In this document: in pieces, positions 31,348 to 48,402 of the stretch
Numbering within the stretch: the first letter of the stretch is position 1
Layout of the letters: each line of letters starts with the position of its first letter
Source: Aquimarina amphilecti
GTDB lineage: Bacteria; Bacteroidota; Bacteroidia; Flavobacteriales; Flavobacteriaceae
Direction of reading: 5' to 3'
NCBI RefSeq assembly: GCF_900109375.1
Contig: NZ_FOAB01000001.1
Coordinates: 806,001-870,000 of the forward strand
Length of the DNA: 64,000 nucleotides
Notes under the pieces: model-generated
The model's database searches: none
Told to the model about the DNA's origin: nothing
The model's input: the letters and a program-made list of their open reading frames with translations, nothing else
Position numbers and translations under genes: made by a program

Positions 31348-31383
31348 CTAAAAAAGGATGTCAAATTTGACATCCTTTTTTAG
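31348..31383. terminator. Bidirectional rho-independent terminator
   Basis: A perfect 36-nt palindrome (31348-31365 with 31366-31383) with A-run and T-run on opposite sides works for both strands. It ends the beta-helix transcript and the long minus-strand operon. The SGNH gene's stop codon lies inside it. Confidence 0.9.
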
Positions 31384-32312
31384 TTATTAAGTTTTTCTTT
31401 AATTATACGTTCAGAAACGAGTTTGGTAAAATACTTAGCTCCAGTATCATTAAGGTGTGATGGATCATGAAACCAATCTAACTTATCCTTAAAATTTTTA
31501 TCATCCAAAAAATTTAATATGGGTACCTCCTCTTTATCTGCTATTTCATTAATCATCCCTAATGATTTATTATTAGAATTTATGTTTCTTAATGTTGGTG
31601 AGATTACAAAAACTAAATCAACATTATTTGATTTCGAATTATTGATAAATTCTTTTAAAGCTAAAACAAAGTTTTCATCAATTTCTTTAACTTGGTCATT
31701 GACCTCCATTAATTTAGAAGTAATGTGATCATTAGTAACTGTTCCATTAAGAGGTCTATAACCTTTATAATCCAATTGAGGAGAGATATAGTACCGAAGT
31801 ATATGAACTATTGTAGAATTCAACAAATATGATTTAAAAAACATTTCTACATCTACAAATTCAGATTTTAGTTTAAATATAGGCCTTAGGTCATCACCAT
31901 ATTCGCTATAATGAGGATGTAAATCATTAAGCCTATCATAAGCTATATCAGAGGAGTACAAAAAATCTTCATCTATATTCAGAATAAACAAATTAGGTTT
32001 CTTACGTTTTAACACCATTTTCTGTAGCGCTAAATGATATAATAATTGTTGTCCTTCGGCGCCAGCATTATATGCAGTAGTGTTTAACTGTTTTTCTAAA
32101 ACCTCAGGTACATAGTGTCTATGTGCATGTGAGCTTCCAAAAATTAGTACTTCTGCTTCTGTTTCATAAATCACAAGATTAGCACGAGCATATTTACCTG
32201 TTTTTTGCAGAAAGAATAAATGATTGCTAACTATCCCAAAAATTACATCTACGATCAAAACAATTATCACAAACTTCATAATCTTTGAAAACGTAGTAAT
32301 ATATCTTTTCAT
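31380..32312 (-). CDS. SGNH-type protein, partner of the second MBOAT
   Basis: 310 residues. A membrane anchor/signal segment (about 12-30) is followed by the nucleophile region VLIFGSSHAHRH (about 55-66) and a C-terminal DPSHLNDTG (Asp about 283, His about 286) supplying the triad. It follows the second MBOAT gene by 10 bp. By analogy with AlgI/AlgJ and DltB/DltD pairs it should be the extracytoplasmic acyltransferase partner. Its sequence is distinct from that of the protein at 16343-17320 outside the catalytic motifs. Confidence 0.72.
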   Translation of the reverse strand: MKRYITTFSKIMKFVIIVLIVDVIFGIVSNHLFFLQKTGKYARANLVIYETEAEVLIFGSSHAHRHYVPEVLEKQLNTTAYNAGAEGQQLLYHLALQKMVLKRKKPNLFILNIDEDFLYSSDIAYDRLNDLHPHYSEYGDDLRPIFKLKSEFVDVEMFFKSYLLNSTIVHILRYYISPQLDYKGYRPLNGTVTNDHITSKLMEVNDQVKEIDENFVLALKEFINNSKSNNVDLVFVISPTLRNINSNNKSLGMINEIADKEEVPILNFLDDKNFKDKLDWFHDPSHLNDTGAKYFTKLVSERIIKEKLNN

Positions 32313-32322
32313 AAATAAATCT

Positions 32323-33738
32323 TTAAAATTGAAAATATATAAATTGACTATGCCCGAAAACTCCTAAATAGAGAATTAAATATATCAATGTAGCATACAT
32401 AAACATGCGTCCTATTTCTTTTTTAGTAAAGAAGTTTATAATTGTAATATTTTGCAAATATTCCCTTTTAAATTCAATGATCACCAACAAAAAGATAGCT
32501 AATACCGCGTACAATGACGCAGCGATATCATCACCACTACCTATATATAGCTTACCTGGTTCAGTAAAAATTTTATTGATAATGTAAAAAGCATCATTAA
32601 CACTATTCGCTCTAAAAAATATCCAAGCAAAACTTATAAAACAAAAAGTACTTATAATATTAAGAATACCTTTCCTTTTCTTACCATTACAAAGTATTTC
32701 TATAATCAAATAAATCCCATTAATAGCGCCCCAGATAACAAACGTCCATTTAGCACCATGCCATAAACCACTTATTAAAAATGTAATAAATAAATTAAAA
32801 AACCACCTGTATCTACCAACACGGTTTCCTCCTAACGGTATATATAAATAATCCCGAAACCAAGTGGATAAGGAAATATGCCATCTATTCCAGAATTCAT
32901 GTATAGAACCCGAAAAATAAGGTCTTCTAAAATTAGTCATCAAATCAAATCCAAAAAGTTTCGCAGTACCAATTGCTATTAAAGAATAACCAGCAAAATC
33001 TCCGTAAATCTGAAAAGCAAATAAAATGGTGGCAAAAATCAAACTAAGACCATCATGATATTCTACATTATTATAAACTGAATTTACATAGATAGCTGTT
33101 CTATCCGCAAGAACTAATTTTAAGAAAAACCCCCAAATAATAAGTTTAATACCATAAGATATAGATTCTTTGGAATACTTCCTTTCTTTCAAAAACTGAG
33201 GAAGCAAATGTGTAGCTCTTTCAATTGGTCCTGCAACTAATTGTGGAAAAAAAGAAACGAAAGCCGCAAATGAAATAAAATCCTTGGTAGGTTTCAACTT
33301 ATCACGATAAACATCAATAGTATATGACATCGTCTGAAAAGTATAGAAAGAAATACCAACCGGAAGAATAATATTTAATGTAGTAACATCCTTAATATCA
33401 TAACCTATAGAATTACATAAATCTACCCAAGAATCAATAAAGAAATGACAATACTTAAAAAAAGATAATACCCCTAAATTAAAAAAGATACTCACTAAAA
33501 GCCATCTTTTTTTTAGTTTATCAGTGTCACAAAGACTTATTCTAATACCAACAAAATAATCCACTAAGGTGCTTAATCCAATTAGAGATAAAAACCTCCA
33601 GTCCCACCAACCGTAAAAAACATAACTTGCTATTAACAATATTACATTTTGAAAACGAATTTTACGCTTTTCGAATAACCAATAAGCAACAAAAACTATT
33701 GGAAGAAAAATTAAAAAATCAAACGAATTGAAATACAT
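32323..33738 (-). CDS. MBOAT O-acyltransferase (AlgI-like), second copy
   Basis: 471 residues, multi-pass. FWNRWHISLSTWFRDYLYIPLGG (segments near 282-304) and the catalytic histidine in ISGLWHGAKWTF (His about 327) are clear. The residue numbering of these motifs is the same as in the MBOAT at 14870-16321, and SFYTFQTMSY and VSFFPQLVAGPIERA are identical between them, so they are paralogues. It most likely O-acylates the polymer or a lipid-linked unit with its SGNH partner. Confidence 0.92.
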   Translation of the reverse strand: MYFNSFDFLIFLPIVFVAYWLFEKRKIRFQNVILLIASYVFYGWWDWRFLSLIGLSTLVDYFVGIRISLCDTDKLKKRWLLVSIFFNLGVLSFFKYCHFFIDSWVDLCNSIGYDIKDVTTLNIILPVGISFYTFQTMSYTIDVYRDKLKPTKDFISFAAFVSFFPQLVAGPIERATHLLPQFLKERKYSKESISYGIKLIIWGFFLKLVLADRTAIYVNSVYNNVEYHDGLSLIFATILFAFQIYGDFAGYSLIAIGTAKLFGFDLMTNFRRPYFSGSIHEFWNRWHISLSTWFRDYLYIPLGGNRVGRYRWFFNLFITFLISGLWHGAKWTFVIWGAINGIYLIIEILCNGKKRKGILNIISTFCFISFAWIFFRANSVNDAFYIINKIFTEPGKLYIGSGDDIAASLYAVLAIFLLVIIEFKREYLQNITIINFFTKKEIGRMFMYATLIYLILYLGVFGHSQFIYFQF

Positions 33739-33754
33739 GATTTAAACAAGTTAT

Positions 33755-35158
33755 CTATATCTCAATTGCAAAATTTCTTTTAACCGCATCAAACTTTCCA
33801 TTTGGTCCTAAAGGAATATCTTCTACAATATTTATTTGATAGTTTATACTTTGTCCCAACCTATCTTGCATATTGTATACTAGTTTTTCTTTCATTTGAT
33901 CATCAAAATTTTGATCAGCAATTAAATTAACTATAATCTCACCCGGACTTTCTTGTATAATTTGACTTTTTACGATTCCTTCTAAGCCTTTATAGGCCGT
34001 ATCCATTCTACCAACATATCCTTTTTCTTTAGTCCAAAGTATATCATCCTCTCTACCTGTCAATTTCTCTATCATGGGCATTACACAACCACAACTACAG
34101 GTTTTTCCTTCTTCAGAGAGTAATACTGTATCCTCTATATTGTATCTAATCAAAGGTGTCTTAAGATTAGTAAAACTTGTAACCACCAATTGAGCTACTT
34201 CACCTGCTTTTGCTTTTTCTCCTTTATTGTTTACAAATTCAAAAACTCCTGAATCTATATTTAGATGTAAGTTCCCTTGAGTACATTCCGTAATAAACGG
34301 ACTTCCTTCGCTAGAAGCGTACTGATTATATACATGACAATTAAACGCTTTCTCAATTTCTAATCTCTGATAATCATACAAAGTTTCTGCAGTTACCGCA
34401 ATTGCTTTTGGAGTAAAATTTAACGTCAAATTATTCTTATTAATAAACCTACTTATAATATAAATAGCGGATGGATACCCATCTAGCAAAATAGGTTTAA
34501 AACGATTTAATTTTTTTACATAATTACCTAAGTTATCATCCGTTAAATGATAAGTAGACATTAATAATTGATTTTCGAAATAGTTATAAACCCAAAATGG
34601 TGGTTTTTTCGAGTCTGGTTTTACAATTAATCTCCCTGAGAATCTCACTTGTTTCACCCTTTTAGTCTCTAAACCAATCGCTTTATGAAATCTTCTCCAT
34701 AAAGCAAAGGATCTATTTATAGATTCCTTATCTAAATAATTAATGGTTGGCGCACCTGATGTTCCACTTGTATAACCAACACCATCAGTATCTCGGTTTT
34801 TATTTACTATTAACTGCGGATTTGTTTTGCGTTCTGACTTGGTAAGTATCGGCATTTTCTGAAGCACATTATAAGGATTTTCTTCTATATCCTTAATTGT
34901 TATACCCAACTTATTCATTTTCTCACTATACCAATCAGAATATTGAAAAGCCTCAGACAACAGGAGTACTAGTTTATTTCTTTGATATGTATTTATTCTA
35001 GAAGTATCCGCATTCCATAAATCAACATATTCCTTTAAAAAAGTATCAAATTCTTTAGTATATCGTTGTTTAGAATTTTGAAAAGCCTTTATGTTAAGTA
35101 ATACAAACTTAAAAGGATAAGGTAAACTGTTATAAATTTTTTCTTGCATCTTTCCCAT
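33755..35158 (-). CDS. CapK/phenylacetate-CoA ligase-like adenylate-forming protein B
   Basis: 467 residues. GVGYTSGTSGAPTINY (about 126-141) is the nucleotide-binding loop. YNQYASSEGSPFITEC and RYNIEDTV are later ANL motifs, and GPNGKFDAVKR near the end holds the catalytic-lysine position. A cysteine-rich CSCGCVMP segment matches the C-x-C-G element seen in many CapK proteins. Reaction not established. It sits between a GT4 gene and the second MBOAT, so the acyl group it activates might feed that MBOAT; this is inference. Confidence 0.82.
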   Translation of the reverse strand: MGKMQEKIYNSLPYPFKFVLLNIKAFQNSKQRYTKEFDTFLKEYVDLWNADTSRINTYQRNKLVLLLSEAFQYSDWYSEKMNKLGITIKDIEENPYNVLQKMPILTKSERKTNPQLIVNKNRDTDGVGYTSGTSGAPTINYLDKESINRSFALWRRFHKAIGLETKRVKQVRFSGRLIVKPDSKKPPFWVYNYFENQLLMSTYHLTDDNLGNYVKKLNRFKPILLDGYPSAIYIISRFINKNNLTLNFTPKAIAVTAETLYDYQRLEIEKAFNCHVYNQYASSEGSPFITECTQGNLHLNIDSGVFEFVNNKGEKAKAGEVAQLVVTSFTNLKTPLIRYNIEDTVLLSEEGKTCSCGCVMPMIEKLTGREDDILWTKEKGYVGRMDTAYKGLEGIVKSQIIQESPGEIIVNLIADQNFDDQMKEKLVYNMQDRLGQSINYQINIVEDIPLGPNGKFDAVKRNFAIEI

Positions 35159-35160
35159 AG

Positions 35161-36303
35161 CTACAGTCCTACTTGTTCTTTATAAAATTCCTGAATCTTT
35201 AAGGTATTAGAAATAATATCGTAATCGCCTTTTATTATTTTTTCTGTATTATTATTCTTTTTGGAAGCATCAACCTCTAATATCTTACTAGCCCAATATT
35301 CGGCTGGTCTTTCAATAGAAAGAAACTCAATATCATTGGTAAGACTTACCTCTGTAGTAATACTATCCGAAGCAAACACTTTAATTCCTGCAGCTTGTGC
35401 CTCAATCAATGTAACCGGCAATCCTTCATAAAAAGACGGAAAAACGAACACATCAAACATTTGAAATAATTCAGGGACGTCTGCTCGTACTCCTAAAAAA
35501 TGCACATTATCATTGACTCCTAAGTTATTAGCTTCTTTTTCCATTACTTTTCTAAGAGGACCATCCCCTATCATAACTAAATCACAATCTGATTTTTCTT
35601 TTAACAAAGCAGCAAAAACACGTAATAGAAATGCATGATTTTTTTGACTTGCAAAACGTCCGACATGACCTATAACTAGACGACTCTGCAAACCAAATTC
35701 TTCTTTGTATTGTTTCGCAACCTCTTTATTATGAGAAAAAACTGCTGTATCGATAGCATTATTCATAGTTGTAAACGAGTTATTTTCTCCAAACAACCAT
35801 TTACCAGCTTTATCCCCACAAGAAAATAAATGCGTAGCATCTTTCTTTACCTTCTTTTTAAGTTGAAGTTTAATTAGCTTCTTAAAAGTTTCTTTTTTAC
35901 TTTCTTTATTAGAGAATAGTGAAGCAAAACTAACATCATCGATAGCAATATGTGCATGTGCTATTCTACAAGGAATATTAAATTCTTTAGCTATTTTTAA
36001 TGGAAAACAACTAAACGTATTTAAATGAGAGTGTACTATTGAATACTCTTTATGTTCACTAAAAAAAGATCTTAACTTTTTATAATAATCTCCTGGAAAA
36101 AGTGGATTGATCGGATCAAATCTATATATCTTACCTCCTAGATTCTCTATTTCTTCATCAAAAGCAGCTTTTTCTTTTCTATGAACTAAAAAATCAAATT
36201 GTATTTTTTCTCTATCAACTTTCCTGTAATAATTCATGATCATAGACTCGGCTCCTCCTCTATTCATGATTGTAAATACTTGCAAAACTCGTATTGCTGC
36301 CAT
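35161..36303 (-). CDS. GT4-family glycosyltransferase
   Basis: 380 residues, GT-B fold. N-terminal VFTIMNRGGAESMIMNYYR is the classical start of EpsF/CapH-type GT4 enzymes. GHVGRFASQKNH (about 217) and PSFYEGLPVTLIEAQAAG carry the donor-binding region with an intact E-x7-E. The gene overlaps the preceding GT2 gene by one base, so it is co-translated. It adds a sugar to the lipid-linked repeat unit in the cytoplasm; donor and linkage cannot be predicted. Confidence 0.9.
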   Translation of the reverse strand: MAAIRVLQVFTIMNRGGAESMIMNYYRKVDREKIQFDFLVHRKEKAAFDEEIENLGGKIYRFDPINPLFPGDYYKKLRSFFSEHKEYSIVHSHLNTFSCFPLKIAKEFNIPCRIAHAHIAIDDVSFASLFSNKESKKETFKKLIKLQLKKKVKKDATHLFSCGDKAGKWLFGENNSFTTMNNAIDTAVFSHNKEVAKQYKEEFGLQSRLVIGHVGRFASQKNHAFLLRVFAALLKEKSDCDLVMIGDGPLRKVMEKEANNLGVNDNVHFLGVRADVPELFQMFDVFVFPSFYEGLPVTLIEAQAAGIKVFASDSITTEVSLTNDIEFLSIERPAEYWASKILEVDASKKNNNTEKIIKGDYDIISNTLKIQEFYKEQVGL

Positions 36304-37193
36304 TAGAATTCTCCTTTTGTTTTATACCGTATATACAAGTTTAATAGCACTCCAAATGGTATTGCCAAAATGGTAGTTAACTTCTTTGGTGATTCACTAA
36401 TAAAAGATCCATTTTTAGTAAAAATAGCACTAGAAACATAATGAATTGCATTCTTAAATTGATCTTTAAAATTCTCAGCAAGCTTCATTCTACTCTTCCT
36501 AGAAAATGCAAAACCTTTAGGATGTCTTCTATATTGTTTTAAAATATTCATACTAGATCCATCTTGCATATACTCTACCTCACATAAGACATCGTTAATT
36601 GGCAATAATTTATAATCTTGATCAATTAATTGATATAAATAACCAAGTGGCACAAAACGTTCTCCTTCAAAAATAGGATATGCAGGGTATTTCTTTACAA
36701 CTTCTGTTCTATACACTAATTTTTTATCTCCTAATACTTTGTGTACATTATACAAATCATATAATGTAGTTTCTTTTATATGCTCTGGAATCTTGGTTCC
36801 AATTATTTTTCCTTCGGGATCAGCATCTAATCCTACCAATCCTGCAAATTCTGGTTTGTCTTTTATTTTTTCCCAAGCGACAAGTATCTTTTCTATGGCC
36901 TCTTCGCCTATACAGTCATCACTATCAACACATACGTTTAAAGTAGTTTCGGTCAATCTATAAGCAGCATTATGACCTCCATGCATTCCTTGATTTTCTT
37001 GATAATGATACTGTATATCAATTTTTCCTTCTTTAATCCAAGAAGCTACTAACGTTTCTGTATCATCAGTTGAACCATCATCTATAATTAACCAAACAAA
37101 ATCTTGATTAGACTGTTTTATTAAACTCTCATAACACTTATTTAGACAATAAGCCCTGTTATAAGTTGGTGTAAATACGGTTATAGTTTTCAT
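36303..37193 (-). CDS. GT2-family (GT-A fold) glycosyltransferase
   Basis: 296 residues. VFTPTYNRAYCLNKCYESL at the N-terminus, IIDDGSTDDTETLV (about 36-49) and the metal-binding DSDD (about 90-93, in NVCVDSDDCIGEEA) define the nucleotide-sugar site. The C-terminal tail has a hydrophobic stretch (LAIPFGVLLNLYIR) that may touch the membrane. It probably adds a beta-linked sugar to the growing unit. It lies just downstream of the EpsG-like polymerase gene. Confidence 0.9.
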   Translation of the reverse strand: MKTITVFTPTYNRAYCLNKCYESLIKQSNQDFVWLIIDDGSTDDTETLVASWIKEGKIDIQYHYQENQGMHGGHNAAYRLTETTLNVCVDSDDCIGEEAIEKILVAWEKIKDKPEFAGLVGLDADPEGKIIGTKIPEHIKETTLYDLYNVHKVLGDKKLVYRTEVVKKYPAYPIFEGERFVPLGYLYQLIDQDYKLLPINDVLCEVEYMQDGSSMNILKQYRRHPKGFAFSRKSRMKLAENFKDQFKNAIHYVSSAIFTKNGSFISESPKKLTTILAIPFGVLLNLYIRYKTKGEF

Positions 37194-37216
37194 TAGTTAA
37201 TTTGTTGTTAGTGTGA

Positions 37217-38311
37217 TTATCCCCAATATAAATAGTACATCATATATGTAAATGAAAAATAAGCCAGCATAACTTTCCCAATCATAAAATGCTGATCTTT
37301 AAAAAATTCTTTCTTTAAAAATGGATATATGATTATAATTGCCATCATAAACCAAGATAGATATGCAAATCTATTAGAATAGTTTGCCTTGATTACTAAA
37401 ATCCAAAAACTATTACAAATCAAATATGTATTAAGCAACTGGTAGTAAAATTTATCCTCAAATTTCTTTTTATAAATAAAGTACCATCCTGCAAATACTG
37501 CGAAAGCACTATGAAATAGAAAATCCCATCGAAATCCAGTACTCGCAAAAGCGTTAGCATCTACCTCAGATGTTAAATACCCTGTAAGTCGATCATCTCC
37601 AAAACCTAAACTAGCGAAAAGCGTAACCCATAAACTTCCCATTACTAGTGACAATGGAATACAAGCCAACCAGCCTTTAAAAAACACCTTAGGGTTGTTA
37701 TAAAAATTAGTAATTACATACGCAAAAATTGGTAAAAACAATGTTTTATGAAAAAACGTTGCTGCAAGAAAAAACAACGCCATAACAACCTTATTCCTAT
37801 GGTAACATAGCCCCCATAAAAAAAGTGATGTAGCAGCTCCATTACGCATACCATTAACTCCATATGTCCAAAATGAAAATGAAACAATAAACATCACGAA
37901 TGAATAATACCAATATTGTCCAAACAGTGTTTTGGATATTTTATAAAGTGGAAAAATGTATATAAATGCACAAATTGTAAAAAAAGTATGTGCGGATACA
38001 ATTTGCGCTAATGTTTTCATGAATACATGCCAACCGTAATCATTTACTTCCGGTATCTCCCCTCCTAACCTATATCTATCGAATGTGACTATATAATTGA
38101 CAGTATCTCCAAAAATACCACTAATAGGGCGTTGACCGATATATAGAATCAAAAAAATCAATAGAAAATAACCAGAAAAATTAATAAACACAATGTTTTT
38201 ATGTTCATTAATTTGCAAGAGTCGGGTGTGTAATAATGTAAAAACAACCAAAAAGAAGCATAAATTAATATACAACGGATAGTAAAATTCTAAGGGCACA
38301 AAAGTGTTCAT
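37217..38311 (-). CDS. EpsG-family membrane protein, probable Wzy polymerase
   Basis: 364 residues with about ten membrane helices. The pattern ISGIFGDTVNYIVTFDRY (about 66-83), a Gly/Asp-Tyr loop after the second helix, and SFWTYGVNGMRNGAATSLFLWG (R about 153) matches the EpsG family, which takes the Wzy role in many Bacteroidota and Firmicutes loci. It is the only polymerase candidate in the locus, so it should join repeat units at the periplasmic face after the flippase. Wzy-type proteins are poorly conserved, so the call rests on topology and the R-N-G segment. Confidence 0.82.
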   Translation of the reverse strand: MNTFVPLEFYYPLYINLCFFLVVFTLLHTRLLQINEHKNIVFINFSGYFLLIFLILYIGQRPISGIFGDTVNYIVTFDRYRLGGEIPEVNDYGWHVFMKTLAQIVSAHTFFTICAFIYIFPLYKISKTLFGQYWYYSFVMFIVSFSFWTYGVNGMRNGAATSLFLWGLCYHRNKVVMALFFLAATFFHKTLFLPIFAYVITNFYNNPKVFFKGWLACIPLSLVMGSLWVTLFASLGFGDDRLTGYLTSEVDANAFASTGFRWDFLFHSAFAVFAGWYFIYKKKFEDKFYYQLLNTYLICNSFWILVIKANYSNRFAYLSWFMMAIIIIYPFLKKEFFKDQHFMIGKVMLAYFSFTYMMYYLYWG

Positions 38312-38395
38312 TTTACTTATTAATTTTAACCGTTATGTTACTACTATTACGTTTCACCTTTTAAGATCTACTCTTTTTTTTACTAAAGTATAAAA

Positions 38396-38968
38396 TTATA
38401 CCTTTTCACCATCTTGTTTAATAATTCTTGCTGGATTTCCAACTACTACACAATTATCAGGAACATCCTTAACAACTACAGAACCAGCGCCTATAGAACA
38501 ATTATTACCGATCTTAATATCTCCAATAATAATAGCACCGGTATAGATCGATACATTATCTCCTATTGTAGGTCTTTTTCCATTTACTTCTCCTACAGTA
38601 ACCAAATGATTTACATATAAATTTTCTCCTATTGAATCTGCATTTAAAATAGTACTATATGGATGTCCTGTTAACACACCACCTCCTAATTTTGTACTAA
38701 TATCAATTCTAAAATACTTTTCCTTCTTACAATATATATTCAACAAACTAGATAAAACGCCTCTATTTCTAAAATAAAACAACGTTCTAAAATCTGGAGA
38801 ATTTGCTAAAAAAATTAAAAGTAAAGTCACCTTACCTCCTTTTGTTCCCTTGGCAGTTGCCCACCTTTCTAGATCCTTATCAATGACAGCTTTGTTCTTA
38901 CTTGTCTGATATACAAGTACATGTGGTAATAAAAAGATCTTATATATATTTAAAATTAATGATCTCAT
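38396..38968 (-). CDS. Serine acetyltransferase-like (LbH hexapeptide) acyltransferase
   Basis: 190 residues. The C-terminal half is a left-handed beta-helix of hexapeptide repeats (IGENLYVNHLVTVGEVNG, IGDNVSIYTGAIIIGDIKIG) ending in VVVGNPARIIKQ. The histidine in YVNHLVTVG takes the CysE catalytic position. CysE relatives within polysaccharide loci usually O-acetylate a sugar using acetyl-CoA. It overlaps the upstream GT4 stop by 4 bp. A real serine acetyltransferase for cysteine synthesis is less likely in this setting. Confidence 0.85.
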   Translation of the reverse strand: MRSLILNIYKIFLLPHVLVYQTSKNKAVIDKDLERWATAKGTKGGKVTLLLIFLANSPDFRTLFYFRNRGVLSSLLNIYCKKEKYFRIDISTKLGGGVLTGHPYSTILNADSIGENLYVNHLVTVGEVNGKRPTIGDNVSIYTGAIIIGDIKIGNNCSIGAGSVVVKDVPDNCVVVGNPARIIKQDGEKV

Positions 38969-40086
38969 TTTTTGTGTATTAAATCATTAAACATTTCTTG
39001 CCAAAGCTTCATCACTACATCAAGTTGATACTTTTTTGAGTTTTCGCGAGCCTTTTTACCCATATTTTGTATTCGATCAGTGTCATTAAGTAAATTATCT
39101 AACTGATCAACAAATGAGTCATTATCATATGGAGTTATTAGAACTCCTGTGTTTTTATCTATAATATTTCTTGGCCCATACGGACAATCAAAAGATACAA
39201 TCGGCAAACCACAAGCTTGTGCTTCTAATAATACCAGAGGGAAACATTCATTATGTGATGTCATCACAAATACTGAAGATTGGATCATCTCCTCTTTAAT
39301 TTCATTTGTAGATCCCATCAATTTAATAGTATCCTGAATACCTGCGCTATTAATTTTATCCTGAAGCATTTTTACATAACTCGGTTCCCCGTTACCAAAA
39401 ATAAGAAGTTGCCAATCTTTTCTAATTTTTGTAAACTCTTCCCAAATATCAATCAAAATATCATGTCCTTTTACTGCAGCAATTCTTCCTGCTGTAATAA
39501 TTGTATTATTTGAAAGTTCAGATACTTTATCCGGATAAAACGTTAATGGATTCGGAATTACCACCGTATTATCAGTCTTATAATAGTCAGACTCATCTTT
39601 ATTTAGAATGACTAATTTATCATATTTCGACTCTACATAATCAGCAAACTTGAAAAAATACTTTTTAAAAAGACTTGGTTTCTTCCTTTTATCTTTTTCA
39701 ATAAACCTTGAATAATGAAACTCTTTAACTTTAGGAATATCTTTTACAATAAATGGAACGAAATAAGTGTCTACACTATGACTACAAACCACTACAATAT
39801 CAGGATTTATAGTTTTTAGCACAGCCTTAGTTCTTGAAATATGTTTAGGTAATTTTTTAAGATTTTTAGGGTGGAAATAAGATTTTCGACGATTATAATT
39901 AATCCCTAAATCCCGGAAAATTATATTTTTATCAAAAGCATAACAAGGAATCTCCTCTTTTTGCTCAGTAGTAATAATATGAACCTTATTACCTTCCTGT
40001 TGAGCTAAATAATTTGCTTTAATAGAAAGTACTCTTTCTATACCACCATGCAAATACACTTGATCAATGATAAAAACTATATTCAT
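38965..40086 (-). CDS. GT4-family glycosyltransferase, tandem paralogue A
   Basis: 373 residues, GT-B. VYLHGGIERVLSIKANYLAQ at the N-terminus, ITAGRIAAVKGHD (about 203) and SHNECFPLVLLEAQACGLPIVSFDCPYGP (segments near 283-312) at the donor site. The neighbouring gene at 40083-41195 encodes a protein with the same ERVLSIKA and SFDCPYGP signatures, so the two arose by tandem duplication and diverged. They probably add consecutive sugars. The genes overlap by 4 bp. Confidence 0.9.
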   Translation of the reverse strand: MNIVFIIDQVYLHGGIERVLSIKANYLAQQEGNKVHIITTEQKEEIPCYAFDKNIIFRDLGINYNRRKSYFHPKNLKKLPKHISRTKAVLKTINPDIVVVCSHSVDTYFVPFIVKDIPKVKEFHYSRFIEKDKRKKPSLFKKYFFKFADYVESKYDKLVILNKDESDYYKTDNTVVIPNPLTFYPDKVSELSNNTIITAGRIAAVKGHDILIDIWEEFTKIRKDWQLLIFGNGEPSYVKMLQDKINSAGIQDTIKLMGSTNEIKEEMIQSSVFVMTSHNECFPLVLLEAQACGLPIVSFDCPYGPRNIIDKNTGVLITPYDNDSFVDQLDNLLNDTDRIQNMGKKARENSKKYQLDVVMKLWQEMFNDLIHKK

Positions 40087-41195
40087 TTTAATCTTGTATT
40101 CGTTAAATTGGTGAATAACTCATTCCATTCTTCTGCAATAGTCTCCGGTAAATATTTCCTTACCGCCACTTTTGCTTTTATTCCCATGGATTTTCTTTTC
40201 TCTTCATTTTCAATTAAAAAAATTATCCCTTTAGCAAAAGCATCAATATCACCATTTTCTATTAAAAGTCCATCTTCTTTATTTGTAATAATATCTGAAG
40301 GGCCATATGGACAATCAAATGAAATACAAGGAACACCATAAGCCATAGCCTCTGTTAGTACCATTCCAAAACCTTCAAATCTAGAGGACATTGTGTAAAT
40401 GGACGACTCTTCATATTTTTCTGCTATATTTTTTACCGGAGGATAAAAATTAATAGTTTTAGCTATATCTAGTTTTTTTGCTAATGTTGCTAAACCTTCT
40501 TCATCACTAATGGTTCCATATATATCTAGAGTCCAATCTGGATGTTTTTCTATAACTTGTTTCCAACTATTTAAAAGTCGATCATAGCCTTTCTGAAAAC
40601 TGTGTTTACCTACCGCAAGTACCTTCTTATTATCTAATGTGCTTTTTTCTTCTGGATAAAACGATAAAGGATTAGGAATTACTTTAATCTTTTTAAAAGA
40701 CCATTCATTAAGGTTTCCATTTGTTAATACTATGAAATTATCATAATATTTACCTCCAAAATTCATCAAACCAAACTTAACTCCAGTTCCAATTCGTTTT
40801 ATTAATGATCTCTTACCTTTTTTGATCTCGACACTTCTAGAAACGTGTCGTTCATAAATCATAGGACAAGGTTTCCCTAAGATTAAAGGAACAAAAAAAC
40901 CTTTTAGACCATCATCACACACCGCAATTATATCTGGCCCTAATTGTTTAATGATACTACGTAGACCAGATGCATATCGGTACATTCTTGAGAACGGATT
41001 ACCTTTTGCTCTAACATTATGATAAGAAATTTTAGAGCTAAAATCATAGAATAATTCATCGGTATCTTGATTTAAAGTAATTACGTGTATATCATAATCA
41101 TATTCTTCAGCAAGTTTACTCGCTTTTATAGAAAGTACCCTTTCCAATCCACCAGGACCATCAATACGATTAACAATATATACAAGTTTCATCAA
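40083..41195 (-). CDS. GT4-family glycosyltransferase, tandem paralogue B
   Basis: 370 residues, GT-B. DGPGGLERVLSIKASKLAEE near the N-terminus, VLAVGKHSFQKGYDRLL (about 192) and SSRFEGFGMVLTEAMAYG (about 275) with the E-x7-E. This GalNAc-alpha-GalNAc-type or PglJ/PglH-like set is a common family match for ERVL-type GT4 proteins, but donor assignment is not safe. It lies 32 bp downstream of the methyltransferase gene. Confidence 0.9.
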   Translation of the reverse strand: MMKLVYIVNRIDGPGGLERVLSIKASKLAEEYDYDIHVITLNQDTDELFYDFSSKISYHNVRAKGNPFSRMYRYASGLRSIIKQLGPDIIAVCDDGLKGFFVPLILGKPCPMIYERHVSRSVEIKKGKRSLIKRIGTGVKFGLMNFGGKYYDNFIVLTNGNLNEWSFKKIKVIPNPLSFYPEEKSTLDNKKVLAVGKHSFQKGYDRLLNSWKQVIEKHPDWTLDIYGTISDEEGLATLAKKLDIAKTINFYPPVKNIAEKYEESSIYTMSSRFEGFGMVLTEAMAYGVPCISFDCPYGPSDIITNKEDGLLIENGDIDAFAKGIIFLIENEEKRKSMGIKAKVAVRKYLPETIAEEWNELFTNLTNTRLK

Positions 41196-41227: not shown

Positions 41228-42187
41228 TTATTTTTTTATTACAATATCTAAATATGGATAACAGAATCCACTAGTTAAATTTTTATTCAGTGATTTTAAA
41301 AACTTAATATATCGAAGTCCTTTAAAACCTACTTTTAAAAAAGCAGATTTTTCAAATTTCATCAAACTACTAACCACATTCATTTCTTTTAATGGCGCGA
41401 TCGCTACCTCAAACTCGTGATAACTAGCTCCTCTTCCCCATCTCTTAAATTTCATCATACTTTCATCATCTATTTCTCTATAGGAATCTTTAAAGTTTTT
41501 TCTAGAAGAAAATTTAGAATAATAATATCCTAAATCATCAGGAAGCCAGTCATAAAATGGTAGTGCAGCGGTATGCGAGTCATAATACCATAATCTATTT
41601 GGAGTTTCAATAATAGCAAGATATCCTCCTTTAGATAACATTCTCCAAGCTTGCTTTAAAGATTCTAATCGTTCACTAACAGTCATATGCTCTAGAACAG
41701 CGTAATAGATAATAAAATCGAATTTTCTATCCTTAAAATTCTCTTCAATCTCCTCTCCATTGACATGATGTAATTCTGCATCATATCCAGCAATCCGCAT
41801 TCTATCTTTTGCTACTTCCAATGCTCCGGCATCTACATCTACACCAACAACGTTAGCACCTTGTTCACTTAATGCTAATGTAGAAATTCCCGTTCCACAT
41901 CCAATTTCTAAAATACTAGCCCCCTTTAAATCCTTTACATTATGTAACCAAGGAGCAATTCTATTTCTGTTGTAATACAAACGTTCAAAAAGCTGTCCAC
42001 TTATTGCTTTATTATATTCTTCTGTGGATAATCTACTTTTAGTATTTCCCCGGTCCAAATAATTTTCTTTAAGCGATTTCGTTAGATCTTCTAATTGCTC
42101 TTTGCTAAATGCTGTGTGTTTTTGTTGCATTTTTTTTGGAGCTGTAAAGAATCTATCTTTTAGCAGTTTTTTGAATACCCTTTTCAT
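41228..42187 (-). CDS. Class I SAM-dependent methyltransferase
   Basis: 319 residues. The SAM-binding motif I ILEIGCGTGISTLA lies near 92-105, followed by the acidic end of strand 2 (VVGVDVDAGALEVA) and motif post-I. FDFIIYYAVLEHMTVSERLESLKQAWRMLSKGGYLAI is the usual motif IV to VI region. The 90-residue N-terminal helix and C-terminal extension are not recognisable to me. In this locus it most likely methylates a sugar hydroxyl or caps a chain; a capping role is inference. Confidence 0.82.
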   Translation of the reverse strand: MKRVFKKLLKDRFFTAPKKMQQKHTAFSKEQLEDLTKSLKENYLDRGNTKSRLSTEEYNKAISGQLFERLYYNRNRIAPWLHNVKDLKGASILEIGCGTGISTLALSEQGANVVGVDVDAGALEVAKDRMRIAGYDAELHHVNGEEIEENFKDRKFDFIIYYAVLEHMTVSERLESLKQAWRMLSKGGYLAIIETPNRLWYYDSHTAALPFYDWLPDDLGYYYSKFSSRKNFKDSYREIDDESMMKFKRWGRGASYHEFEVAIAPLKEMNVVSSLMKFEKSAFLKVGFKGLRYIKFLKSLNKNLTSGFCYPYLDIVIKK

Positions 42188-42202: not shown

Positions 42203-43168
42203 TTAGATTTTATTAGTTACTTTTTCTTTCAATGCATTGGCAAGTTCGTGGTGTTTTTCGAGGTTTTTTACGGTTGTATTGTTGGTTATTTTTCCTTCTA
42301 ATCCAAAATTAGAAGTATATGATCCAGTTTTACTATCAATGTCAATTCTATTAAACAATTCTAGAATCCCATCAAATCGACAAGAATCTACAAAACTATC
42401 AAAACCATTTACAAAAATTACAGGTGTCCCCATGGCTAGACATGGTAAAGCACAATGAATTCTAGAGGTTATAACAAGTTTTGCTTTTGCATACTTATTA
42501 AGCAATTCAACAGCCATGTCGAATTTCTCTTCATCAGTATATGTATTAGAAGGAGGTTCTTGGTTAATAAAAGTTGCGGTTTCCAACAATTCTTTACTTA
42601 TAAACTTTTTTATATGCTTATTTTTCTTGCCTAACTTAAAAGCGGATCCATTTAGAATATTTTTAATGGTAATTTTAGTATTGTAAAATACTTTTTCTGC
42701 ACGTGGATAACTATATAAAGGATCTACGATATAAATATCATCTCCTCTTTCAGAATCATCTACTTTATAAGAATCTAGGGTTAATGTAAGACAACCTGTA
42801 AAATGTGCATCAATGCCTTTTGCCTTAAGTGTATCAGCAGTAAACTGATCTCTACAACCTATAGGTTCATGCTTTTTTAAATATGCAATACCTTTTTCAC
42901 TTAACATTGCTGGTGCAGCAGTGTTATTCATATGAAAAGAAACAAATATAGGATCTATATCCTCTGATGGCACCCAATTATGAATATTGTGTGTAAACCA
43001 TCCATTCATAATTAACTTGATAGGATCTCCTTTATAATCACCTAATCGCTCTCTGTTTAATAGCGTATCAACCTTTGGTAAATATTGTTTAGCCGCTAAA
43101 CTTTGAATATTATCCCCAACATTAAAGAAATTCTTATTCTCATCGTATGTAAGTAGTCCGTATTTCAT
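42203..43168 (-). CDS. Polysaccharide pyruvyl transferase family protein
   Basis: 321 residues. N-terminal NVGDNIQSLAAKQYLP, central GCRDQFTADTLKAKGIDAHFTGCLTLTLD (segments near 118-148) and RIHCALPCLAMGTPVIFVNG match the CsaB/PssM/WcaK family (PF04230). These enzymes transfer a pyruvate ketal from phosphoenolpyruvate to a sugar, adding negative charge to the polymer. It follows the PP-loop protein gene with a 28-bp gap. Some family members do not transfer pyruvate, so the exact product is not certain. Confidence 0.85.
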   Translation of the reverse strand: MKYGLLTYDENKNFFNVGDNIQSLAAKQYLPKVDTLLNRERLGDYKGDPIKLIMNGWFTHNIHNWVPSEDIDPIFVSFHMNNTAAPAMLSEKGIAYLKKHEPIGCRDQFTADTLKAKGIDAHFTGCLTLTLDSYKVDDSERGDDIYIVDPLYSYPRAEKVFYNTKITIKNILNGSAFKLGKKNKHIKKFISKELLETATFINQEPPSNTYTDEEKFDMAVELLNKYAKAKLVITSRIHCALPCLAMGTPVIFVNGFDSFVDSCRFDGILELFNRIDIDSKTGSYTSNFGLEGKITNNTTVKNLEKHHELANALKEKVTNKI

Positions 43169-43196: not shown

Positions 43197-44477
43197 CTAT
43201 TTTAATTTTCTATATATCTTTTGCATCCAAGGAAACTTATTTCTAATAATAAACTTAATTCTATTCGTTCCTTTATTTGCATTGTTTATTTTTTCTTCCA
43301 GAAGTCTATCTACCTTTCCTCCTCTAAACTCATCCATATGTCTGGTCTCTGTTTCAATATCATCAAAAACAAAAAAAGTATCTACATTCTTTGCTTTCTC
43401 CATCAATTCCCACCAAAAATATTTCACTCCTTTACTTCCTGAACCTATATGCAGAATTTGATAAATCTTATCATAAACACTACCATCAACTTTAAATCCA
43501 TATTCATTAGGGTTTTGATTATTAAGTATCAGCCCTAATATTGTTCTAAAACATTTTTCACAGTAACTACAATTAAACTCTGTTCTTTTTTCAGAATAAC
43601 AAACGCGCAATCGAAATCTTTTATCTTTCTCCGAAGCAAATTTGGCTATCAAATCTACTTTATCTTGTCTTTTTAGTTCATAACCATCATGAAATACCTG
43701 AAAACCCGATCCCCAAGTGATTTTTTCATCAATCTCTGGTGTTGACCCCCAATCAATATCAATATGATCAGTATAAGAAGACGCAATATGCACTGAGCTA
43801 TATTGGTTTACAAATGACAAAGGAGCAATTGAGCCTACTAGCGCTAACCCATGTTGTACTTTTCCCCACCAACCAATATCTTTTAATAAAAGTTCTACCT
43901 GGTAGGTGTAAAAATCTCTAAGATTTGTTTCTATAAATTCCTTACTATTTTCATTTAAAAGCTCCTCATTCTCAATAAAATCTGTAAAATCAGTCCATTG
44001 CTCTTTATCTTTGATAGTAATATCAGCTCCATGAAGTGTTATTAAATCTGGTGTTTTGTCATAGATTCTGATATATGTCGCAAATGCATCTACTCCACCA
44101 CTAAAAAGCATTGCTGACTTAGACTTTTCTATTGAGTTTTTAATCAATTTCTTTGCAACCAATGTTCCTTCGAAACTATTAGCAGTATCTCTTTTAGCGA
44201 ATTCTTGTTTTATTTTTTCCTGCGCTTGATAAAAATCTTCATCTACTTCATCTACTTCAATAGTAAAACCTGCAAACCAAGCCATTGGCAATATGTTCGA
44301 TAAAAAAGGGATTACAGAAATACTTTCGGGAGTAGTACTTACATCTATTTGATATTTAGAATAAAAGGATTCATTCTCTTCAAATAGCTTCTGGATATTG
44401 GCATCCACCGAATACTCATAATTAATCTTACGACCATTATCTGAATATGTAATTGAATGTAACTTTAATGTATCCAT
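43197..44477 (-). CDS. PP-loop ATPase-like protein with QueC-type cysteine cluster
   Basis: 426 residues. MLFSGGVDAFAT (about 123-134) is the PP-loop (SGGxDS/A) of ATP pyrophosphatases. C293, C303, C306 and C309 (CYSEKRTEFNCSYCEKCFRT) form a C-x9-C-x2-C-x2-C cluster like the zinc site of QueC. The first 110 residues are not recognisable to me. PP-loop enzymes adenylate a carbonyl or carboxylate for amide, nitrile or thio group formation. In polysaccharide loci the known PP-loop family is the WbpG-type amidotransferase, but this protein is not of that type by its cysteine motif. Substrate unknown. Confidence 0.65.
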   Translation of the reverse strand: MDTLKLHSITYSDNGRKINYEYSVDANIQKLFEENESFYSKYQIDVSTTPESISVIPFLSNILPMAWFAGFTIEVDEVDEDFYQAQEKIKQEFAKRDTANSFEGTLVAKKLIKNSIEKSKSAMLFSGGVDAFATYIRIYDKTPDLITLHGADITIKDKEQWTDFTDFIENEELLNENSKEFIETNLRDFYTYQVELLLKDIGWWGKVQHGLALVGSIAPLSFVNQYSSVHIASSYTDHIDIDWGSTPEIDEKITWGSGFQVFHDGYELKRQDKVDLIAKFASEKDKRFRLRVCYSEKRTEFNCSYCEKCFRTILGLILNNQNPNEYGFKVDGSVYDKIYQILHIGSGSKGVKYFWWELMEKAKNVDTFFVFDDIETETRHMDEFRGGKVDRLLEEKINNANKGTNRIKFIIRNKFPWMQKIYRKLK

Positions 44478-44485
44478 TCTTTAAT

Positions 44486-46027
44486 TTATTTTCGTTTAAG
44501 TAATGAAACTATAGGTTTTCTAAATAATTCTCTTTCATATTCTAACATACCAACAAAATACATCATAATCACAAAAACAATTGTATATGAGATACCTTTA
44601 GCTATAAAATTAAACCATCCTTCACCAGGAATATAATTGATAAAATATCCTGCAGCTATTACCAATAGTACTACCAACAAAACTTTATGAAATAACTCTT
44701 TAAAAAAACGTATAATATTTAAACCAATTTTATTATGGTAATAAAAATTCATCACATTTTGAACAATCATCCAACCACCTACAAGCCCTATCATCATTCC
44801 GATAGCACTATATTCCATTGCCAAAAATCCACCAGCGATAACTCCCAATATCATAAATACAAGATAAAGAATTGCTTTAAATGATAATTTGTTTTTCGCC
44901 TCCAATATAGAATTTCCAAAAGCTTGTAATAAAGGAAGTGTATATCCAATCATAATAATAAGAGCAATCATATAAATCTCTCTACATTCTTCTAAACCAT
45001 ATCGACCATCTGCAGTAGAGTCTCCTCCTCCAACCCAAAGGTTTATGAATTGTTCTCCATATAACATAAATGCTCCAAAAATGTACATAAGTATAATAAA
45101 AGACAGCCTTCCAAGCTTTATCATCATGTCAGTCAACTCTTCTCCACTAGCATTATTAACAGACATCTGTGTAGCTCTAGGTAAAAACACACTAGAAATT
45201 GCTGTTGAAAAAGCACCATAATACGTTCCTAATGCTATTCCGATTCCATAAATACCTAATACTTTAGGCACACTAACCGCTCCTAAAACCCAACTACCAG
45301 ATTTCCATTGAAGCATATTTACAATTGCAAAAAGAAAGATCCAGCTAGAGTACTTAAAAATTTCTCTAACAAAATCTTTAGAAAATTGATGTAACTTAAA
45401 TCTAACCTTCAATTTCACTAATACATAGTAAGCTGATATCGAAATCGTAAGAATATTAAATATGGTATCTACAATAACCAAAGCAATTGCTCTTCCACCA
45501 AAAAACAAAACAGCGACTATCGTTAAAGATCTTAAAATATATCTAACAATCCCTACAGATTCTGGAAAGACAAATTTTTCATATCCTTTACAAATACCCG
45601 TAAATATCATACCTGGTAATTGAATCGCCAAATTGAAAACCAGAATAACAAACATCATTTTTGCTATGCTTAATTCTTCTGCATTAAACTTGGTAAAGTA
45701 AGTATCTATAAAGAAGTAAAATATAGTTCCGGAAATAACTACCAATGTAGAAACCGCAAAGTAAAGTATCCTGACCGTTCCTAAGAAATTCTCTTCACCT
45801 TCTTTATCTTTCTCTGCTCTATACTTAGCTACAAAACGAACTACTGTATTGGTCAGTCCGAAATCGAGCAATGCAATTGTACCTATTAAAGCACCAATAG
45901 CATTAAAAATCCCGTACTCATCCTTCCCTAAGTAACTAACGATCAATGGAGTTATCATAATTCCAATAACGTTAATCAAAAAGATTTTTAAATACGTAAG
46001 TAAAGCTCCTTTTTTTAGTTGGCTCAA
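44486..46027 (-). CDS. Wzx-type lipopolysaccharide/polysaccharide flippase
   Basis: 513 residues with about 12-14 membrane helices. The N-terminal LLTYLKIFLINVIGIMITPLIVSYLGKDEYGIFNAIGALIG region (in shorter segments at about 7-47) is the typical start of MATE/MOP-superfamily polysaccharide flippases. It should move undecaprenyl-linked repeat units across the inner membrane. It is the only flippase in the locus, so it would serve units begun by both PglC-like enzymes. It is encoded 9 bp before the PP-loop gene. Confidence 0.92.
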   Translation of the reverse strand: MSQLKKGALLTYLKIFLINVIGIMITPLIVSYLGKDEYGIFNAIGALIGTIALLDFGLTNTVVRFVAKYRAEKDKEGEENFLGTVRILYFAVSTLVVISGTIFYFFIDTYFTKFNAEELSIAKMMFVILVFNLAIQLPGMIFTGICKGYEKFVFPESVGIVRYILRSLTIVAVLFFGGRAIALVIVDTIFNILTISISAYYVLVKLKVRFKLHQFSKDFVREIFKYSSWIFLFAIVNMLQWKSGSWVLGAVSVPKVLGIYGIGIALGTYYGAFSTAISSVFLPRATQMSVNNASGEELTDMMIKLGRLSFIILMYIFGAFMLYGEQFINLWVGGGDSTADGRYGLEECREIYMIALIIMIGYTLPLLQAFGNSILEAKNKLSFKAILYLVFMILGVIAGGFLAMEYSAIGMMIGLVGGWMIVQNVMNFYYHNKIGLNIIRFFKELFHKVLLVVLLVIAAGYFINYIPGEGWFNFIAKGISYTIVFVIMMYFVGMLEYERELFRKPIVSLLKRK

Positions 46028-46078: not shown

Positions 46079-47362
46079 TTACAATCTTCCGTGTACTTCA
46101 TCTTCTTTTAATATACCTTTAACATCATACAAGACACCGTTTGGTTTTAGTAATGATTTTAAATCTATATCTAAATATTCTTTATGTGCAACAGTTAACA
46201 CAACAGCATCAAATTTAGAATCCGGCAACTTGGTTATAATTTCCAGACCGTATTCATGAGCTACTTCCGAAGGACTTGCCCATGGATCATAAATATCGAT
46301 GTCAGTACCAAAATCTTTAAGGTTTTGTATCACATCGACTGCTCTAGTATTTCTTACATCTGGGCAATTTTCTTTAAAAGTAATTCCTAATACTAATATG
46401 TTAGCACCTTTGATTTTAATATCATGATTAACCATTAATTTAATAACCTCGGAAGCGACATATTGTCCCATACTATCATTTAGTCTTCTACCGGCTAGTA
46501 TAATCTCTGGATGATATCCAAACTCTTGCGCTCTTTGAGCTAAATAATAAGGATCGACTCCAATACAATGTCCACCTACTAAACCAGGTTTAAAAGGCAA
46601 GAAATTCCATTTTGTACCTGCTGCTTTCAAAACTTCATTAGTATCGATATCCATCAGGTTAAAAATCTTCGCCAGCTCATTAACAAACGCTATATTAATG
46701 TCACGCTGAGAGTTCTCTATTACCTTAGCTGCTTCTGCTACCTTTATAGTTGGAGCCAAATGAGTTCCTGCCGTAATCACAGAAGCATAAAGAGCATCTA
46801 CCTTTTCACCTATCTCTGGTGTAGAACCTGCAGTAACTTTCAATATTTTTTCTACAGTATGTAATTTATCTCCAGGATTGATACGCTCTGGAGAATATCC
46901 TGCATAAAAATCTTTATTAAACTTTAGTCCACTTATTTTCTCTAAAACTGGAATACATTCTTCTTCTGTAACACCTGGATATACTGTAGATTCATATATC
47001 ACAATATCTCCTTTTTTCAATACCTTCCCAACAGTTTCACTTGATTTATATAAAGGCGTAAGATCTGGTCTATTATTTTTATCAACTGGAGTAGGAACTG
47101 TTACGATATAATAATTACAATCTTTAATATCCTCCAGGTCATCAGAACAATATAATCCCTGATCCATCATAGAATCTTTTTTTAACACCGACTGTAATAC
47201 ATTATCTTCAACTTCTAGCGTAGTATCTTTTCCTGATCTTAATTCATTAATCCTGTTTTGATTTATATCAAAACCAATAACAGGAAATTTAGTTGCAAAT
47301 AATCTGGCTAAAGGAAGTCCTACATATCCTAAACCGATAATTCCTATTTTTATATTTTGCAT
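46079..47362 (-). CDS. UDP-N-acetylhexosamine 6-dehydrogenase (TviB/VipA-like)
   Basis: 427 residues. NAD-binding GIIGLGYVGLPLARLFA at the N-terminus, VTVPTPVD (about 87-94), AAKVIENSQRDINIAF (about 211) and the catalytic cysteine in GLVGGHCIGVDPYYLA (Cys about 266). The family oxidises C6 of UDP-GlcNAc or UDP-GalNAc to the uronic acid with two NAD+. The neighbouring TviC-like epimerase makes UDP-GalNAcA the likely end product, an acidic sugar that gives a charged polymer. The gap to the epimerase gene is 41 bp. Confidence 0.93.
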   Translation of the reverse strand: MQNIKIGIIGLGYVGLPLARLFATKFPVIGFDINQNRINELRSGKDTTLEVEDNVLQSVLKKDSMMDQGLYCSDDLEDIKDCNYYIVTVPTPVDKNNRPDLTPLYKSSETVGKVLKKGDIVIYESTVYPGVTEEECIPVLEKISGLKFNKDFYAGYSPERINPGDKLHTVEKILKVTAGSTPEIGEKVDALYASVITAGTHLAPTIKVAEAAKVIENSQRDINIAFVNELAKIFNLMDIDTNEVLKAAGTKWNFLPFKPGLVGGHCIGVDPYYLAQRAQEFGYHPEIILAGRRLNDSMGQYVASEVIKLMVNHDIKIKGANILVLGITFKENCPDVRNTRAVDVIQNLKDFGTDIDIYDPWASPSEVAHEYGLEIITKLPDSKFDAVVLTVAHKEYLDIDLKSLLKPNGVLYDVKGILKEDEVHGRL

Positions 47363-47403: not shown

Positions 47404-48402
47404 TTACTTTAGATTATCCCAATACCATTTTACTGCCTCTTTCAATCCCGATTTTATATCAAATTTTGGATCATAGTCAAGTAGTGTTTTCGCCTTATCT
47501 ACAGAAGCTAAAGAATGCGGCACATCTCCTTTACGTTCTGGCCCTTTTTTAACTTCTACATCACTTATTTTTGAATCAAAATCAGAAAGATATTCTTTTA
47601 ATAATGTAACCAATTCATTTAGAGTAGTTCTTTCTCCGAAAGCAGTATTATATACGTTATTTAAAGCTTTTTCATTATCAGAAACGATAGCTCTCAGATT
47701 CATTTGAATTACATTATCTATATAGGTGAAATCTCTAGAGAAAGATCCATCACCATTTATTACTGGTGATTCATATTTCATAAATTGCATTACGAACTTT
47801 GGAATCACAGCAGCATATGCTCCATTAGGGTCTTGTTTTCTACCAAAAACATTAAAATATCGTAATCCCACAGTATCTAAATCATATGTCCTTTTAAAAT
47901 TATCAGCATATAATTCATTTACATACTTTGTGATTGCATAAGGAGATAATGGTTTTCCTATTTTATCCTCTACTTTGGGTAATGCTTCCGAATCCCCATA
48001 AGTAGAAGAACTTGCTGCATAAATAAATCGCTTAACCCCTGCATCTCTTGCTGCAACTAACATATTAAGAAAGCCTCCAACATTAACATCATTACTAGTA
48101 ATTGGATCATTAATGGATCTAGGTACAGACCCTAAAGCGGCTTGATGCAATATATAATCTACTCCATCACAAGCTTTATGACAATCATCTAGATTTCTTA
48201 TATCACCTTCTATAAATGTAAAATTTGGATGTTCGTTTAATGCGGTTAGATTTTTCTTATGCCCAGTTGCAAAATTATCTAAACCGATAACTGTACTGTT
48301 TTTTTCTAATAGTGCTTCGCATAGATTTGACCCTATGAAACCTGCCGCTCCTGTAACTAAAACAGTAGAAGAACTAAGTAGTTCTAATTGGTTAGTTTTC
48401 AT
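47404..48402 (-). CDS. UDP-N-acetylhexosamine 4-epimerase (TviC/WbpP-like SDR)
   Basis: 332 residues, extended [21 protein letters not shown] (about 15-32) binds NAD+. Active site is SSSTYGDS (about 131-138) and [13 protein letters not shown] with Tyr about 155 and Lys about 159. The [10 protein letters not shown] segment (about 91-100) is typical of the WbpP/TviC group that prefers N-acetylated substrates. It interconverts UDP-GlcNAc(A) and UDP-GalNAc(A). It is the first gene of the long minus-strand operon, which runs to 31380 (15 genes), after a promoter near 48596. Confidence 0.92.

Follow-up and report, generated by a model that had tools for sequence, protein, structure and literature searches.

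A predicted QueC/QatC-superfamily PP-loop enzyme encoded among surface-polysaccharide assembly genes

The window analyzed here is a 64,000-nucleotide stretch of the Aquimarina amphilecti genome, and it contains a polysaccharide cluster that includes a gene for a PP-loop enzyme (Table 1). Along the minus strand, the order is TviC-like gene, TviB-like gene, flippase, enzyme, pyruvyl transferase (PPT), methyltransferase, glycosyltransferases, polymerase and acetyltransferase. The flippase, enzyme and PPT genes are separated by gaps of 8 and 28 bases, and the enzyme gene is single-copy in the genome. The first-pass annotation had placed the gene between a flippase and a pyruvyl transferase and had pointed to SGGVDA and to Cys293, Cys303, Cys306 and Cys309; the profile matches of both neighbors bear out the position, and the residues are present as described in the 426-residue open reading frame. 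An MBOAT acyltransferase gene (32323-33738) lies beside genes for a weakly DUF1574-like protein (31380-32312) and an unassigned 467-aa protein (33755-35158), and this group (31380-35158) probably serves O-acylation of the same polymer.

Table 1. Genes and sequence features at the locus; positions are those of the window.
Feature	Positions	Strand	Basis
QueC/QatC-superfamily PP-loop enzyme (predicted), 426 aa, ATG start	43197..44477	-	fold and motifs
N-terminal domain, residues 1-118, absent from QueC	44124..44477	-	pLDDT 95.4 when modeled alone
PP-loop SGGVDA, residues 126-131	44085..44102	-	conserved (37-row subset)
Family motif WGSTPEID, residues 243-250	43728..43751	-	S245 37/37, D250 36/37
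Predicted zinc site C293(x9)C303xxC306xxC309, with invariant N302 and K308	43551..43601	-	
Flippase, Wzx-like, upstream neighbor	44486-46027	-	PF01943, E 9.7e-17
Pyruvyl transferase family partner (PPT), downstream neighbor	42203-43168	-	PF04230, E 9.4e-19
TviB-like UDP-sugar C-6 dehydrogenase (uronate supply)	46079-47362	-	546 bits, model cut-off 592
TviC-like C-4 epimerase	47404-48402	-	415 bits, model cut-off 760
Methyltransferase, same cluster	41228..42187	-	homologues in 9 family loci including the window's own
Remaining assembly genes, including four glycosyltransferases	35161..41195	-	Pfam/NCBIfam
EpsG-type polymerase	37217-38311	-	
Hexapeptide acetyltransferase	38396-38968	-	

Residue conservation was read from an alignment of 43 diverse members, made up of 43 representatives minus L071, L085, L087 and the second L075 copy (L numbers denote loci), plus P0001, L005, L009 and one more L004 copy. 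G128, D130, R270, C293, N302, C303, C306, K308 and C309 are invariant across these members, and the motifs that contain them are therefore not chance occurrences. A loosened PP-loop pattern, [ST][GSL]GxD[AS], matches 43/43 members; 18/43 carry the strict SGGxDS form, and the window member has SGGVDA. The putative zinc motif C(x)6-12CxxCxxC is likewise found in 43/43, with a first spacing of 8 or 9 in 41/43. A 37-row subset has S126, G128 and D130 in every row, G127 in 35/37, and alanine (22 rows) or serine (15 rows) at residue 131. R270, K273 and all four cysteines are present in 37/37 rows. Two PP-loop deviants lie outside the alignments, SGGVNS in L071 and SCGVDS in the second L075 copy.

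The QueC motifs VPxRN and YPDC were found in 0/43 members, compared with 7/7 control QueC proteins for both. YxQxHxxE is absent from the 43 members and also from the seven controls, so it offers no fair test. The family motif W243-G244-S245-x-P-x-x-D250 occupies the region where QueC has the substrate-binding YPDC, and in a low-confidence profile alignment YPDC falls just before WGSTPEID. Taking P247 as the YPDC proline, there is no tyrosine at 246 in the 37 rows and no aspartate at 248 among the 35 of 37 residues listed, a mapping of our own that the profile alignment does not support and that deserves little weight.

The window protein reached no Pfam or NCBIfam model at cut-off and had no match in phage records. 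The single-protein matches to Pfam HUN (E 0.005) and to I-MsoI in the PDB (E 0.027) were treated as chance, and TilS, the sole match of the 43-member profile against PDB sequences (E 0.31), was set aside. PF06508 (QueC) matched 1/43 members at E 0.0059, short of the gathering cut-off. NCBIfam models gave an argininosuccinate-synthase-related match in one member (E 0.00034) and two stray matches. Csx21 was the only defense-model match (1/43, E 0.0066) and was rejected. A loose scan of seven members returned weak QueC matches in four, all below cut-off and each located on the PP-loop or the zinc motif. L003, L008 and L009 have weak matches to DUF6395 (PF19932) over the zinc-motif region, and DUF6395 may be a related family.

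An AlphaFold model built with 37 sequences has a pLDDT of 93.4 and a pTM of 0.92. Structure alignment ranks QatC at the top (Z 12.9, rmsd 4.7-5.0 over 298-303 residues), and QatC is the only one of 50 entries listed that covers model residues 1..396. QueC (Z 11.2 over 184 residues) and Cap9 (Z 10.0 over 168) are followed by YcfA, LarE, ThiI, TilS, MnmA and the nitrile synthetase ArtA at Z 8.8 and below; LarE, ThiI, TtuA and MnmA share the common fold core at Z 7.3-7.9. Foldseek returned two QueC entries at probability 0.99, with no E-value ≤ 0.001. Profile-profile comparison gave probabilities of 78.5 % for QatC, 46.3 % for a long QatC-like group, 36.8 % for canonical QueC and 17.6 % for another QueC-like group, compared with 0.2-1.2 % for five control families. 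The N-terminal domain on its own had a best PDB match of Z 5.5 to an unrelated protein, with no QatC row in the list. The domain is included in the full-length QatC alignment, and since it has no confident match when taken alone, its kinship to the QatC extension is unproven. The predicted fold and the hallmark motifs place the enzyme in the QueC superfamily, in agreement with the QueC resemblance seen at first pass. Its family forms a new branch within the QueC/QatC superfamily, and a widespread one. Five QatC-like proteins of 452-656 aa that score below the QatC cut-off (L134, L135, L136, L137 and L145; four of at least 575 aa) possibly form another branch.

QatC, from the qatABCD anti-phage system, resembles the enzyme in that a QueC core is flanked on both its N- and C-terminal sides and in lacking YPDC. 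PMC13279940 describes QatC as having lost the Tyr and Asp that read the nucleobase. The two differ in that NF041925 has no match at E 0.01 among the 43 members, the QatC zinc variant C(x)19CGxCxxRR, scanned in two CGxC forms, occurs in 0/43, and the enzyme is encoded among polysaccharide genes whereas QatC belongs to a defense operon. Of each neighbor tally 25 families were listed, a part of the whole, and these do not include qatA, qatB or qatD. QueC itself shares the PP-loop, the C(x)8-9CxxCxxC zinc site and the Rossmann-type core, but the enzyme has about 200 extra residues and no VPxRN or YPDC, and no queD or radical SAM family is among the 25 neighbor families listed. Cap9 of type IV CBASS has the QueC fold and supplies, through its ATP-driven amide formation, the model borrowed below. 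Its minimal core of ~185 aa, which keeps the canonical QueC active site (PMC13329287), contrasts with the 426 aa of the enzyme, and its gene context is different. WbpG-type N-acetyl sugar amidotransferases are also PP-loop enzymes, of O-antigen synthesis. The earlier view that the enzyme differs from WbpG holds: CxxC(x)6CxC and SGGxDSxY, patterns scanned without a WbpG control, occur in 0/43 members, and no WbpG-type NCBIfam model matched. The literature searched yielded no description of a QueC-like protein in polysaccharide clusters, and the accessible part of PMC13329287, which discusses WbpG and lipopolysaccharide, contains no word starting 'pyruvyl' or 'polysaccharide'.

The family is large, has no name and occurs in bacteria and haloarchaea, in few Bacteroidota or Bacillota. 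A genome-collection scan with a 9-member alignment gave at least 490 confirmed places, from which 80 loci were kept. Taxa among the matches listed include Flavobacteriaceae, Moraxellaceae, Opitutae, Geothrix, Bacillaceae, Cohnella, Erysipelotrichaceae, haloarchaea and one Bathyarchaeote, with more distant members in Gloeothece and Azospirillum. The closest relatives among the matches listed are from Aquimarina (85-91 % identity). Family members were found in 3/395 Bacteroidota genomes (single-protein query, own genome counted), in 2/299 genomes of the phylum of Cohnella (center genome counted) and in 56/194 genomes of the class of Natrinema (haloarchaea). The best 20 homologues in plasmid records carry the annotation "hypothetical".

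A PPT profile match lies within 1.5 kb of the enzyme gene in 47/83 loci. These comprise 37/40 flavobacterial-type and 10/22 other bacterial loci (47/62 bacterial); none was found at that distance in 20 haloarchaeal loci or at one Bathyarchaeote locus, and the enzyme family is therefore not tied to pyruvate. The 12 remaining loci of the other bacterial group include nine in which a PPT lies farther off in the examined stretch. Many of the 83 loci are from the genus Aquimarina and hence not independent, and six of 89 loci (L006, L009, L057, L073, L083 and L089) were left out of the counts because the family gene is absent from the ORF calls; L009 has a PPT by annotation. Flippase control loci had a PPT within 1.5 kb in 1/30 cases. 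The contrast between 47/83 and 1/30 is an upper estimate, because the controls include flippases outside polysaccharide loci (neighbors such as dUTPase, ATP synthase and EF-Tu), control flanks were counted from the flippase match and so reach less far past the gene, and the PPTs used to build the profile were themselves family-linked. A Pfam tally is less biased: PPT is the commonest family, at 14/86 hand-picked neighbors from 24 self-chosen bacterial loci, compared with at most 1/76 in the control. This tally includes a few Flavobacteriales (L043, L048, L050 and L054), and its 127 neighbor ORFs were trimmed to 86, mostly within two genes, with some very long ORFs dropped.

Among the immediate neighbors, 44/47 enzyme-PPT pairs are on the same strand, and all of these 44 except one (L004) have gaps below 110 bases. 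Single-linkage similarity clustering divides the 47 adjacent PPTs into groups of 41, 5 and 1. The PPT is upstream, not downstream, in 4/5 loci of the second cluster (L004, L008, L059 and L063), and the separate clusters and the changed order suggest, short of proof, that enzyme and PPT came together on more than one occasion. The Azospirillum pair lies away from other genes for sugar polymers. R106, R236 and H238 are invariant in 47/47 adjacent PPTs and were matched by motif reading to the PEP-site residues R148, R306 and H308 of CsaB. In CsaB itself, R148 and H308 proved critical, and docking pointed to R306 (PMC10435577). CsaB K328 differs in having no evident equivalent in the window's PPT subtype, as judged from sequence reading. 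Identity correlations over 37 loci were 0.81 for enzyme-PPT versus 0.79 for enzyme-flippase, and 0.30 versus 0.49 for distant pairs; by this measure, co-evolution does not single out the PPT.

TviB-like genes lie near 31/40 flavobacterial-type loci and elsewhere, within the stored flanks, only at L058, L077 and L085. TviC-like matches, to a generic epimerase family, occur at seven further loci, and L004 has an annotated UDP-glucose/GDP-mannose dehydrogenase of another kind than TviB. Haloarchaeal neighborhoods (L005, L006, L056, L060, L082, L085 and others) contain a recurrent ~600-aa protein, at 19 loci by clustering. The L005 copy is without a Pfam match, and DUF6541 is annotated at that place in L006. 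A phosphodiesterase-family gene (PF01663) accounts for 6/49 haloarchaeal neighbors scanned, a set trimmed from 68 ORFs. A distant member in a Bacteroidota genome (L003 / L196) stands alone beside complex I (NuoL-like) and pirin genes.

One locus from a single Firmicutes metagenome-assembled genome encodes a fusion. The 666-aa ORF at L071:7188-9188 joins an ABC-transporter ATPase domain (PF00005) to a QueC-like domain, with an ABC-2 permease gene directly upstream and a PPT gene three genes further along. The ATPase probably serves polysaccharide export, and by inference the fusion puts the activity close to that step. The SGGVNS PP-loop has Asn in place of Asp, and the fused member may therefore be altered or inactive. 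L004, L046 and L084 have two nearby copies each. L075 also has two QueC-like copies, the second of them divergent, and between them lie an opine-dehydrogenase-like gene and a gene of the TupA-like ATP-grasp kind (L075:9297-12895); both families make amino-acid-type products.

A queuosine role for the enzyme was rejected. The first-pass annotation had named a confident tRNA- or queuosine-type match, together with a nucleoside gene set elsewhere in the genome, as evidence against a polysaccharide role; a QueC search of the genome finds nothing at E 1e-3, and the single match to the QueF profile is below cut-off and by its motif resembles the GTP cyclohydrolase FolE. A QueE-like radical SAM gene is present at C16:124042-124659 (L110:1534-2181), below the model cut-off. 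The 7-carboxy-7-deazaguanine (CDG) made in this pathway could thus exist without a known consumer. QueC is rare in the bacterial family of the window, with one strong full-length match in 60 genomes, so its absence alone says little. Among 38 family-bearing genomes (L045 left out), the QueE profile matches from model positions 1-4 in 28, matches only partially in five (including Aquibacillus halophilus and a Halovivax) and has no match in five, including the isolate Cohnella mopanensis. The model detects 10/14 controls, and it may miss divergent QueE; several of the genomes are small MAGs.

We lean toward an enzyme of the QueC superfamily that activates a carboxylate with ATP, forms an amide and acts in surface-glycan assembly. 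QueC and Cap9 use ATP to adenylate a carboxylate, which ammonia or an amine then attacks to form an amide (PMC13279940). The conserved PP-loop and zinc site suggest the same adenylation chemistry here, and the linkage to glycan genes points to an acid carried by a glycan. The PP-loop would bind ATP, and a carboxylate of a surface-polysaccharide intermediate would be adenylated. Ammonia or a larger amine would then attack the acyl-adenylate, so that an amide forms and AMP and pyrophosphate are released. The zinc site with its four cysteines would be structural, as supposed in QueC. The carboxylate, that of the pyruvate ketal added by the PPT or of a uronic acid, would most likely be carried by a lipid-linked glycan during or close to its export. 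The PPT linkage favors the ketal in bacteria, and the TviB/TviC linkage favors the uronic acid in Flavobacteriaceae. We infer the amide chemistry, the zinc, the substrate and the timing alike. Counting against amide formation, relatives of the same fold carry out other chemistry (sulfur transfer in LarE, MnmA, argininosuccinate synthase). The reading as a whole is further weakened by the lack of a sequence match above any curated cut-off, by the PPT-free haloarchaeal loci, which show that this partner is not obligatory, by the 12/22 other bacterial loci with no PPT within 1.5 kb, by a co-evolution result no better for the PPT than for the flippase, by the many loci from one genus, by the complex I and pirin setting of L003 and by the origin of the fusion in one MAG, with an altered PP-loop.

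Two substrate ideas lead within the amide-forming reading, and we make no choice between them. A two-step glycan mark is possible, if doubtful: the PPT would add a pyruvate ketal, and the QueC-like enzyme would activate the ketal carboxylate with ATP and convert it to a free or amine-linked amide. The amide would neutralize or extend the mark, perhaps as a chain cap at export, and the same enzyme without a PPT would amidate other glycan acids in haloarchaea. No description of such a mark was found in the literature, nor of an amidated pyruvate ketal, the accessible part of PMC6801904 included. The other idea, which overlaps with the favored reading and is itself tentative, is that a GalNAcA-type uronic acid from the TviB/TviC-like enzymes is converted to a uronamide, either at the sugar-nucleotide stage or within the repeat unit. 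Both genes lie in the window operon, TviB-like genes accompany most flavobacterial-type members, L004 has its own dehydrogenase, and GalNAcAN is a term used in the literature on Francisella and Plesiomonas O-antigens. Against it, TviB-like genes are confined to three loci outside the flavobacterial type, with TviC-like matches at seven more, and the PPT is the wider bacterial partner. The first-pass proposal of uronate activation for amidation therefore survives in part: amide formation may be retained as sound, and GalNAcA as the substrate is unproven, because TviB-like genes accompany the enzyme mainly in Flavobacteriaceae.

Modification of a partner protein rather than a sugar, as by Cap9 and probably QatC, is unlikely. 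No structure matches the full length of the model better than QatC, and Cap9 couples a nucleobase acid to the N-terminus of a protein (PMC13279940), but the acceptor in both systems is an N-terminal glycine, and Gly2 is found in 0/47 adjacent PPTs with starts taken from the ORF calls. The absence of QatC zinc-motif forms, the glycan-gene neighbors and a defense signal limited to the Csx21 match speak against a protein target as well. Sulfur transfer or another PP-loop reaction, on a glycan or a cofactor, is very unlikely: LarE, ThiI, TtuA and MnmA have the same fold core, but they rank below QueC, QatC and Cap9, and the four cysteines are arranged as in QueC, whereas LarE has an iron-sulfur site of three cysteines (PMC13329287). 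Least credible is the use of CDG to attach deazaguanine to a glycan or carrier, which we regard as highly improbable. CDG is the substrate of QueC and Cap9, the window genome has a QueE-like gene without QueC, and most family-bearing genomes match QueE from the model start. The deazaguanine-reading YPDC is nevertheless missing from every member, and QueE is missing or partial in 10/38 genomes, which, subject to the detection limit given above, argues against CDG as a common substrate.

The QueC scaffold is known from tRNA base synthesis and, in papers of 2025-26, from anti-phage protein modification. With a separate branch, found in more than a quarter of the haloarchaeal genomes sampled and in scattered bacterial phyla, this chemistry would extend to surface polysaccharides. 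This provides a function lead for proteins now annotated as hypothetical, and the specific partner and the expected mass change make the question of the substrate testable.
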